Source of the DNA: Candidatus Saccharimonadota bacterium
GTDB lineage: Bacteria; Patescibacteriota; Saccharimonadia; Saccharimonadales; Saccharimonadaceae
Length of the DNA: 64,000 nucleotides
Direction: 5' to 3'
NCBI GenBank assembly: GCA_017519305.1
Contig: JAFWSN010000001.1
Location: 246,296-310,295 of the forward strand
Of this stretch, positions 18,596 to 54,275 are shown piece by piece. Each line of letters opens with the position of its first letter. Positions within the stretch are counted from its first letter, which is position 1. The translations under genes and the position numbers were made by a program. A model generated the notes under the pieces. The model was not told the DNA's origin, ran no database searches, and worked only from the letters and a program-made list of their open reading frames with translations.

Positions 18596-20413
18596 ATGAC
18601 TTTAGCAGAAACTCTAATTAGAAATGTTGCGATTATCGCCCACGTCGACCACGGCAAGACGACTCTTGTTGATGGCCTCCTCAAACAATCCCACACTTTC
18701 CGCGATAATCAGGCCGAGATGTCTCAGACGCTCATTATGGATTCTATGGATCAGGAGCACGAACGCGGCATCACTATTACCGCCAAACAAACCGCTGTTT
18801 TTTATGATGGTTATAAAATCAACATCATCGATACCCCAGGCCACGCCGATTTCTCTGGCGAAGTCGAACGTACTCTAAACATGGCAGACGGTGTCATCTT
18901 GATCGTCGACGCTCAAGAAGGCCCAATGCCACAGACTAAATTCGTGCTCAAAAAAGCTCTTGAGCTCAAGCTCAAACCAGTCGTCGTAATCAACAAAATT
19001 GATAAACCAGCTGCTCGTATCGAAGAGGTTAAAGATGAAATATCCGATCTCTTTCTCGAGCTTGCCACCGACGAATCCCAGCTTAACTACCCAATTTACT
19101 ACGCTATTGCTCGCGACGGTAAAGCTGGCAAAACCACCGATCTAGACGACGATTTGCACGTAATCTTTGAATCAATCATCAATGATATTCCAGCACCAAA
19201 AGTCGACGAAGACGAGTCTAAAGGTGCCCAACTTCTTGTTGCTGCGCTTGCCGCCGATAATTATCTCGGCAAATACTGCATCGGCAAAATCTTCCGCGGC
19301 TCCCTTAAAAAAGGCCAAGCTGTCAAAATTTTGCAAAATGGCACCAGTAAAAACGCCAAAATCGACCGCCTTTTCACCTATAAAGGCCTTGGTAAAGAGG
19401 AAACTGAATCCGCTATCGCCGGCGACATCGTCGCTCTTACCGGTGTTAGCGAAGCCAATATCGGCGACACTATCGCCAGTGGCGACAATCCAGAAGCTTT
19501 GCCGACTATTGAACTCGAACCACCAACCCTTTCTATCTACATCGGCCCAAATACTTCACCACTCAAAGGTAAAGAGGGCGAATTCACTACCTCTCGTCAA
19601 ATTGCTGAACGCCTCGAAAAAGAGCTCGAAACCAACATCGCTCTTAAAATCGAACCAGATGGCCTTGGTTACAAAGTTTCCGGCCGCGGGGAATTACATC
19701 TCTCTGTTCTAATCGAAACTATGCGCCGCGAAGGTTACGAACTTGAAGCCGGCCGTCCAGAGGTAGTCTACAAAGATATCGACGGTGTTAAATGCGAGCC
19801 CATCGAAGATTTAACCATCGAAGTTGAGCCAGAATTCGTCGGTGCCGTATCACAGGAACTCGGTATCAGAAAAGCTGAACTCAAAACCCAAGATCTAACT
19901 TCTACCGGCGCCACTCGCTTTACCTATGAAATTTCTACTTCCGCCCTTATTGGTCTTCGTAATATGTTGATGACCGCCACCAAGGGTACCGTCCTTATGT
20001 CTAGCGTTGCTAACGGCTACCGTCCAGTAGATTCTAAGTACAAACCAGAGCGTAACGGCGCTCTCGTCGCCTTCGAATCTGGCGTTTCTACCTCTTATGC
20101 CCTTGATGCTGCCCAAGCCCGCGGTGTTCTCTATATCCCTCCACAAGTTCCGGTCTACCAAGGTATGATTGTTGGTCTTTCCAACAAAAAAGATGATCTC
20201 GATATTAACGTCTGCAAAGAGAAGCAGCTCACTAATATGCGCACTCACGCCTCTGACGGCGCTATCCAGCTCACCCCTTATACTCAACTTTCTCTTGAAC
20301 AATGCCTCGATTTCTTGCTCGACGACGAGCTTCTTGAAGTTACCCCTAAATCCTTGCGCCTCAGAAAACGTCAACTCGACCCAATCAAGAGAAAACGCGA
20401 AAACCGCGCCTAA
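18596..20413 (+). CDS. typA: Translational GTPase TypA/BipA
   Basis: 605-aa ribosome-associated GTPase. G1 AHVDHGKTT, G2 in RGITITAKQ, G3 DTPGHADF, and G4 NKID are all present in the first 130 residues, followed by domain II, the EF-G-like III and V domains (GRGELHLSVLIETMRREGYEL) and the BipA-specific C-terminal domain ending KRKRENRA. Acts in 50S assembly and stress. Single gene with own promoter and terminator. Confidence 0.96.
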   Translation: MTLAETLIRNVAIIAHVDHGKTTLVDGLLKQSHTFRDNQAEMSQTLIMDSMDQEHERGITITAKQTAVFYDGYKINIIDTPGHADFSGEVERTLNMADGVILIVDAQEGPMPQTKFVLKKALELKLKPVVVINKIDKPAARIEEVKDEISDLFLELATDESQLNYPIYYAIARDGKAGKTTDLDDDLHVIFESIINDIPAPKVDEDESKGAQLLVAALAADNYLGKYCIGKIFRGSLKKGQAVKILQNGTSKNAKIDRLFTYKGLGKEETESAIAGDIVALTGVSEANIGDTIASGDNPEALPTIELEPPTLSIYIGPNTSPLKGKEGEFTTSRQIAERLEKELETNIALKIEPDGLGYKVSGRGELHLSVLIETMRREGYELEAGRPEVVYKDIDGVKCEPIEDLTIEVEPEFVGAVSQELGIRKAELKTQDLTSTGATRFTYEISTSALIGLRNMLMTATKGTVLMSSVANGYRPVDSKYKPERNGALVAFESGVSTSYALDAAQARGVLYIPPQVPVYQGMIVGLSNKKDDLDINVCKEKQLTNMRTHASDGAIQLTPYTQLSLEQCLDFLLDDELLEVTPKSLRLRKRQLDPIKRKRENRA

Positions 20414-20414
20414 G

Positions 20415-20443
20415 AAAAATAGCCCAGCAAATGGGCTATTTTT
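20415..20443 (+). terminator. Intrinsic terminator of typA
   Basis: AAATAGCCCA, loop GCAAA, TGGGCTATTT with T-run to 20443. Confidence 0.85.
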
Positions 20444-20449
20444 AAGACA

Positions 20450-20669
20450 TGGAAAAGGCCTGACGCTTGGAAGCTGATATTGTCAGGCCTGGCTAGAGTA
20501 TTCAATTTTGCTTTTGAGAGTTTTTTATAAGATAAGGTACATTCATGATTGAAAGGGAAGGGTATTCTTTCCACTTTGAAAAAATGAATAAATCAGAAAG
20601 TGGTGAAGCGCTTCAACTGGTAAGGGCCGAAGCATAAAAGTGGTGGAAAGAACACTGGAATACTCTAGC
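20450..20669 (-). ncRNA. Candidate structured noncoding RNA, about 220 nt
   Basis: Minus-strand unit in the 330-nt gap between typA and tatD. The predicted +1 is the G at 20669. The first 12 nt (GCTAGAGTATTC) are perfectly complementary to GAATACTCTAGC at plus 20492-20503, just before a terminator hairpin, so the RNA is closed by a long end-to-end helix. Inside, TTCTTTCCAC can pair with GTGGAAAGAA over 10 bp, competing with a CCACTTT/AAAGTGG hairpin. A C-rich stretch ACCCTTCCCTTTC could pair with Shine-Dalgarno sites. It has no frame of note on either strand. The closed-end shape recalls 6S RNA, but I see no sequence that identifies it; RNase P, tmRNA and SRP signatures are absent. Confidence 0.7.
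20451..20489 (-). terminator. Terminator of the ncRNA
   Basis: Minus strand: GGCCTGAC (20489-20482), 17-nt loop, GTCAGGCC (20464-20457), then TTTT. Confidence 0.8.
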
Positions 20670-20675
20670 TTTATC

Positions 20676-20704
20676 ATTATAGCATATCAAATCAAAAAAG
20701 TCAA
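20676..20704 (-). promoter_or_regulatory. Strong promoter of the ncRNA
   Basis: TTGACT, exactly 17 nt, TGC-extended TATAAT on the minus strand. It is among the best matches to the full sigma-70 consensus in this window. Confidence 0.8.
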
Positions 20705-20745: not shown

Positions 20746-21474
20746 ATGTTAATTGATTCTCATTGTCACCTGCACGACCGCGAGTTCTTCTCTAATGAAG
20801 AGGCAAAAAGCGCCCTCAAAAAAGCCGCGGCCACCGATGTTACTAAGATTATTTGTATCGGCACCGACCCAGACGACTCCGAAGCCGCCCGCCTCTTTGC
20901 CGAACAAAATAGCAATGTCTTCTATACCTACGGTATTCACCCCAGTGAATGCCAAAAATTTGCCGTCGAAAAACCAGCCGGCAGCGCCAAATTAGTCGGT
21001 ATCGGTGAAATCGGCCTCGATTACCACTACTCACCAGAAACTCGCGAAGATCAAATCAAGTTATTCGAGCAACTACTCCAGCTTGCTACCGACAAAAATC
21101 TACCAGTTAGCTTCCATGTCCGCGAAGCTTTTGATGACTTCTTCGGCGTTATCCAAAATTTTCCAAGAATCCGCGGCGTCGTGCATTCATTTTCAGATAG
21201 CAAAAAGGTCCTGAAGCGCATTTTGAATGAAACTGATTTTTATGTCGGCTTGAACGGCCTCGCGACCTATTCCACCCTGCCAACTCCGCCACTCGAGAAA
21301 ATTCTACTCGAAACCGACGCACCGTTCCTAGCCCCGACCCCATTCCGCGGCACCAAAAACGAGCCGGCTTACATTAAGGAAATTGCTCTCTGGCTCGCCG
21401 AACACCTCGGCACCGACATTGTCACCGTTTCCGAAACCACTTCAAAAAATGTCCACGATTTGTTTAATATTTAA
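20746..21474 (+). CDS. tatD: TatD-family metal-dependent hydrolase/DNase
   Basis: 242-aa TIM-barrel hydrolase. DSHCHLHD gives the first metal His pair, GIGEIGLDYHYS the Glu, FHVREAFDD the next His, VVHSFSD the last His, and LLETDAPFLAP the catalytic Asp; RGTKNEPAYI follows as in the family. About 12 residues are missing between the VGLNG strand and LEKILLETD compared with typical members. TatD proteins are 3'-5' DNases or D-aminoacyl-tRNA deacylase relatives. The next gene follows 21 nt later with its own -10 box. Confidence 0.92.
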   Translation: MLIDSHCHLHDREFFSNEEAKSALKKAAATDVTKIICIGTDPDDSEAARLFAEQNSNVFYTYGIHPSECQKFAVEKPAGSAKLVGIGEIGLDYHYSPETREDQIKLFEQLLQLATDKNLPVSFHVREAFDDFFGVIQNFPRIRGVVHSFSDSKKVLKRILNETDFYVGLNGLATYSTLPTPPLEKILLETDAPFLAPTPFRGTKNEPAYIKEIALWLAEHLGTDIVTVSETTSKNVHDLFNI

Positions 21475-54247: not shown

Positions 54248-54275
54248 ATTATACATAAAATTCCTTATCTGTCAA
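54248..54275 (-). promoter_or_regulatory. Promoter of adhesin 1
   Basis: Minus strand: TTGACA, 16 nt, TATAAT. Nearly identical to the promoter of adhesin 2, including the following GGTCATA leader. Confidence 0.8.

Follow-up and report, generated by a model that had tools for sequence, protein, structure and literature searches.

Does the gap between the housekeeping genes typA and tatD in the genome of a rumen-type Saccharibacterium hold an RNA gene and, if it does, how might that RNA act? The stretch analyzed here (the window) is a 64-kb part of a 786-kb Saccharibacteria genome, whose relatives include many rumen or gut isolates, one of which is Candidatus Nanosyncoccus alces. A literature search turned up no publication on regulatory small RNAs in Saccharibacteria. 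In the window, typA (18596–20413) and tatD (20746–21474) both lie on the plus strand and are separated by 332 nt. On the minus strand of this gap, convergent with typA, a first-pass annotation had described a promoter, a 12-bp helix, and an intrinsic terminator, and all of these named elements were found. The promoter reads TTGACT-17-TGCTATAAT, and the predicted 3′ end of the RNA is 37 nt from the typA stop codon. The features are listed here in the direction of the candidate transcript, with the basis of each in brackets.

20676–20704, minus strand: promoter TTGACT-17-TATAAT with an extended −10 (TGC before TATAAT) [11 of 12 consensus positions]
20450–20669, minus strand: predicted ncRNA transcript of ~220 nt, spanning 20669 (+1) to the T-run of its terminator [6-nt spacing rule, terminator, fold]
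20658–20669, minus strand: closing helix, 5′ strand, GCTAGAGTATTC [fold; compensatory pairs in both sister species]
20643–20655, minus strand: inner helix, 5′ strand, GTGTTCTTTCCAC [fold]
20562–20574, minus strand: inner helix, 3′ strand, GTGGAAAGAATAC [fold]
20551–20561, minus strand: C-rich segment CCTTCCCTTTC, which contains UCCC, a candidate Shine-Dalgarno (SD) binder [fold]
20492–20503, minus strand: closing helix, 3′ strand, GAATACTCTAGC [fold; compensatory pairs in both sister species]
20450–20490, minus strand: intrinsic terminator with a AGGCCTGAC / GTCAGGCCT stem and a 17-nt loop, then TTTTCC [sequence and fold; equivalents in both sister species]
20415–20443, plus strand: second terminator hairpin, belonging to the convergent typA [read from sequence]

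The start of the transcript was placed with a rule measured in the same genome. In a 385-kb sample, about half of the genome taken as stretches that include the window, and also the basis of the leader and target statistics given below, 36 genes have a start codon exactly 6 nt past a −10 box, which produces a sharp peak. The peak identifies mRNAs that are putatively leaderless and would begin with the A of the start codon, and it yields a genome-specific +1 rule that puts the start of the RNA at 20669 (TATAAT-GATAAA-G). As this is also the first base of the closing helix, the proposed coincidence of promoter and helix holds under the genome-wide 6-nt spacing. The RNA promoter ranked best of the four found (chance expectation, 1.0). 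In the window, typA and tatD themselves show a −10 box immediately before their ATG. Two consensus promoters, at 54275 and 56456 on the minus strand, lie ahead of similar leaders with a GGTCATA motif; the proteins encoded after them start alike (MHYRRKT...) and are apparently paralogous, and a third promoter, at L199:17666, has a similar leader.

The 12-bp closing helix is perfect and runs end to end, pairing 20669–20658 with 20503–20492. No helix of this length was reached in 20,000 dinucleotide shuffles, the longest shuffled helix being 10 bp. Fold energy is −61.1 kcal/mol vs. a shuffle mean of −40.3 kcal/mol (z = −5.32) with promoter and terminator included, and z = −6.61 without them. The fold lies below all shuffles. 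An inner helix is present as described, with 13 pairs including one G-U in place of the 10 bp claimed, and the predicted loop between the two helices is lopsided (2 nt vs. 58 nt). Because an inverted repeat folds on either strand, and the plus strand likewise folds better than its shuffles (z = −4.59), the strand was assigned from the promoter and terminator, not from folding.

Genomes related to this one provide a second line of evidence. The nearest relatives by typA, L031/G063 and L032/G140 (95% and 94% identical), carry an RNA at the corresponding position and in the same orientation between typA and tatD, with the same layout of promoter, helix, and terminator. Their promoters read TTGATT-17-TATAAT, the closing helix (GGTG..GAGTAT/ATACTC..CACC or GGTG.ATGAGTTA/TAACTCAT.CACT) begins a few bases past +1, and an inner helix follows (TTCTTTGTC/GACAAGAA). 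The predicted transcripts are ~330–350 nt, with interiors longer than that of the window RNA, and their folds are significant (z = −3.49 and −4.61). In all three species the RNA has its own terminator, which ends it before typA is reached, and in L032 this terminator abuts typA. MAFFT misaligned the closing helix when given all three RNAs, so pairs were counted in a hand-made structural register; of the ten pairs compared, four show double-sided compensatory changes and one a change from G-C to G-U. The L031 and L032 RNAs have about 64% of aligned bases in common. Their interiors could not be aligned with that of the window RNA, which is also not recognized by a covariance model of their 3′ half, so homology of the three RNAs rests on site, orientation, layout, and closing helix. 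The covariation looked for in related genomes is present as four compensatory pairs in two sister species, within a set of three species with unalignable interiors.

At the level of sequence, the candidate has its own promoter, its own terminator, no open reading frame (ORF), and a conserved structure, as would be expected of a small-RNA gene. We consider it very probable that the gap between typA and tatD encodes a real structured RNA. That it is also recently evolved is very probable because two sister species keep its architecture with compensating base changes.

Of 174 genomes, 3 have this RNA; no further member came to light when up to 174 genomes of the genus were searched by DNA, pattern, and covariance model. 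BLAST with the window RNA against 100 genus genomes returned short chance matches only, and with the L032 RNA the remaining matches were promoters, belonging to tRNAs and to other genes. The pattern TATAAT..GAGT..TTCTTT, which missed the known member G140 owing to its length limit, gave background and known members only in 174 genomes. The covariance model built from the 3′ halves of the L031 and L032 RNAs scored well in its two source genomes alone among the 174; its six best weak matches proved on inspection to be coding sequence or unrelated DNA, with the motif not in place. Since this model misses even the window RNA, a diverged copy elsewhere could escape it.

A pyrimidine-rich or C-rich segment, predicted to be very open in the sisters (GCCUCCUUUCA) and moderately open in the window (CCUUCCCUUUC), hints at a possible function. 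Binding of SD sequences by accessible UCCC or C-rich boxes is a well-documented mechanism (PMC3861533; PMC2837412). In the window RNA, the first half of the segment is predicted to be unpaired and its last few bases are partly paired. Over 13 nt, CCUUCCCUUUC has a mean unpaired probability of 0.68, and 32% of sequence windows are as open; it is not a perfect anti-SD and is located outside a hairpin loop. The L031 and L032 loops carry an identical GCCUCCUUUCA, with mean unpaired probabilities of 0.86 and 0.92 (2% of sequence windows of that length as open). We take GCCUCCUUUCA to contain, as a perfect match, the anti-SD sequence of 16S rRNA as generally known, the 3′ end of this genome's own 16S rRNA lying outside the sample. 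As support for anti-SD action, the 11-base identity of the two loops is suggestive only.

Such action would separate the genes of this genome by leader type. About 327 genes in the 385-kb sample comprise 54 putatively leaderless, 187 with an SD, and 86 others. Predicted pairing of the C-rich segment averages −7.2 to −7.5 kcal/mol with SD-bearing leaders, vs. −1.3 kcal/mol in the comparison, a difference between leader classes that is partly trivial because G-rich leaders favor pairing with any C-rich sequence. In target prediction over 333 sampled genes, the best duplex (−19.8) was no better than those of shuffled segments, and strong-promoter genes were not significantly preferred as targets.

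The mechanism we favor runs as follows. A strong sigma-70 promoter would drive an RNA of ~220 nt that should be stable; pairing of its 5′ end with the segment before the terminator would seal the molecule, which should then resist 5′-end-dependent decay. The exposed C-rich segment may pair with the SD of leadered mRNAs and, acting in trans, would mask it and block 30S loading, and the many leaderless mRNAs of the genome would escape. A lineage-specific regulatory small RNA of this kind, whose possible binding to SD sites the first-pass annotation had suggested, is a tentative proposal that we place somewhat below an even chance, because no target rose above the shuffled controls and strong-promoter genes were not significantly preferred. 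A bolder version, in which a recently born Saccharibacterial RNA copies the ribosomal anti-SD and serves as a class-wide translational switch that damps SD-led mRNAs and spares leaderless ones, seems rather unlikely.

We weighed this proposal against the known RNA families and the functions they would imply. Rfam searches of the window region and both relatives, at gathering and at relaxed thresholds, gave nothing credible, the relaxed matches being chance. RNase P, tmRNA, and SRP RNA had been set aside at the outset, and covariance models indeed place none of them at the locus; RNase P and tmRNA are found elsewhere, on contig C2. The tmRNA at L207 (G000:C2:13652-14006) scores 77.7 bits with its covariance model, yet was missed by ARAGORN. 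The SRP RNA model (RF00169) had no match at the locus or anywhere in this genome, nor was it detected in the seven genus-mates tested, compared to matches in 11–13 of 14 control genomes; in this order, the SRP RNA may have diverged strongly. The suggestion that the candidate resembles 6S RNA by shape found no support. The 6S model (RF00013) has no match in the region even at E ≤ 10, its best score in the genome being a weak 18.2 bits elsewhere, and where 6S RNA, which binds RNA polymerase and templates product RNAs, has a symmetric central bubble that mimics an open promoter between two long flanking helices, the loop predicted here is 2 nt vs. 58 nt. In an order-mate, a 6S-like candidate with 32.4 bits, below the cut-off, lies between rplT and rpmB (L171:1501-1654). 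Identification of a 6S RNA here by synteny with this order-mate was rejected because the rplT–rpmB gap is 30 nt in this genome, which leaves no room.

These searches bear on the idea that the RNA works through a protein partner, as in sequestration of RNA polymerase by a 6S-like RNA or through another RNA-binding protein, and not by base-pairing. Long end-sealed helices and a single-stranded side that is large and asymmetric would suit such a role, as would a sequence that drifts fast while its architecture is kept, and the genus sample reveals no 6S RNA anywhere else. Against it stand the absent 6S score, the lopsided loop, the better 6S-like candidate of the order-mate at a different place, and a distribution limited to three genomes when 6S RNA should be general. 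We regard a protein-mediated role as quite unlikely.

An equally slim chance attaches to a reading suggested by the gap itself. In other relatives, tatD directly follows typA, or the gap holds unrelated small SD-led ORFs (L033–L036), or the arrangement differs again, so that the space between typA and tatD looks like a variable slot. The small ORFs of L033–L036 are mutually unrelated and have strong SD sites and terminators, which suggests that their slot is a turnover site for small genes. In L031, an orphan ORF of 282 aa (L031:5833-6681) is divergent from the RNA; it matches no Pfam entry, no relative turned up among 295 genomes of the family, and its ribosome site TGAAAGAAGG is complementary to the loop of the L031 RNA at 9 of 10 positions. 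The locus could accordingly be read as variable cargo, with an RNA that silences a neighboring accessory gene in the manner of a type I toxin–antitoxin pair and that has been orphaned in the window genome. The variability of the slot, which is empty in many relatives, and the pairing in L031 speak for this reading. It is opposed by the lack of a partner ORF in the window, by the unclear remnant that is all L032 retains of one, and by the isolation of the L031 ORF; moreover, any anti-SD RNA would be expected to show complementarity to an SD.

Less probable again is a mainly cis-acting element 3′ of typA, in which a convergent transcript would exert antisense or collision control and the structure would be incidental. 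Convergence with typA, the short distance to its stop codon, and the terminator that abuts typA in L032 are consistent with it. We think it very unlikely, as the RNA terminates on its own before typA in three species, its structure is kept through compensatory changes, and most relatives lack this RNA yet regulate typA. A fortuitous inverted repeat next to a fortuitous promoter, with no functional RNA, is no better placed: the narrow distribution and unalignable interiors would fit, but the shuffles never reached the closing helix, and three species keep the layout of promoter, helix, and terminator, with the four compensatory pairs. Weakest by far is an mRNA for a small protein, which would match the slot and orientation of the small ORFs of sister species and could use a 54-aa minus-strand frame (20574–20410), but is highly improbable given that this frame runs through the terminator, that the window RNA has no SD-like motif (the three RNAs have almost none), and that no conserved ORF was seen across the RNAs of the three species.

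The small RNA proposed here is a clearly bounded candidate whose ends are predicted to the base and which covariation supports; it illustrates how an RNA gene can emerge and change quickly within one clade. Where leaderless and SD-led genes coexist in a genome, as they do here, an anti-SD RNA could keep the two classes of translation apart.

Compared to known systems, the candidate RNA belongs to none of the families tested. It shares with 6S RNA a size range and an end-closing helix, and differs in having no covariance-model score, no central bubble, and a narrow distribution. With the Rsa-type and LhrC-type small RNAs of Firmicutes it would share an unpaired UCCC or C-rich box for which pairing with sites of translation initiation is predicted (PMC3861533), but it has no Rfam match and differs in fold, phylum, and gene context. 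The C-rich or UCCC boxes of Staphylococcus aureus RNAIII and the Rsa RNAs are accessible and pair with SD sequences, and RNAIII, like the candidate, is a long structured RNA; its C-rich (UCCC) segments are able to mask SD sites, as that of the candidate may (PMC3861533; PMC2837412). The candidate is unrelated to RNAIII in sequence, lacks both an agr system and an internal delta-hemolysin ORF, and is half the size or less. In RNAIII, too, the 5′ and 3′ ends pair. Our leading interpretation is thus of a young, lineage-specific small-RNA gene that would resemble RNAIII in its way of working without being a member of that family.
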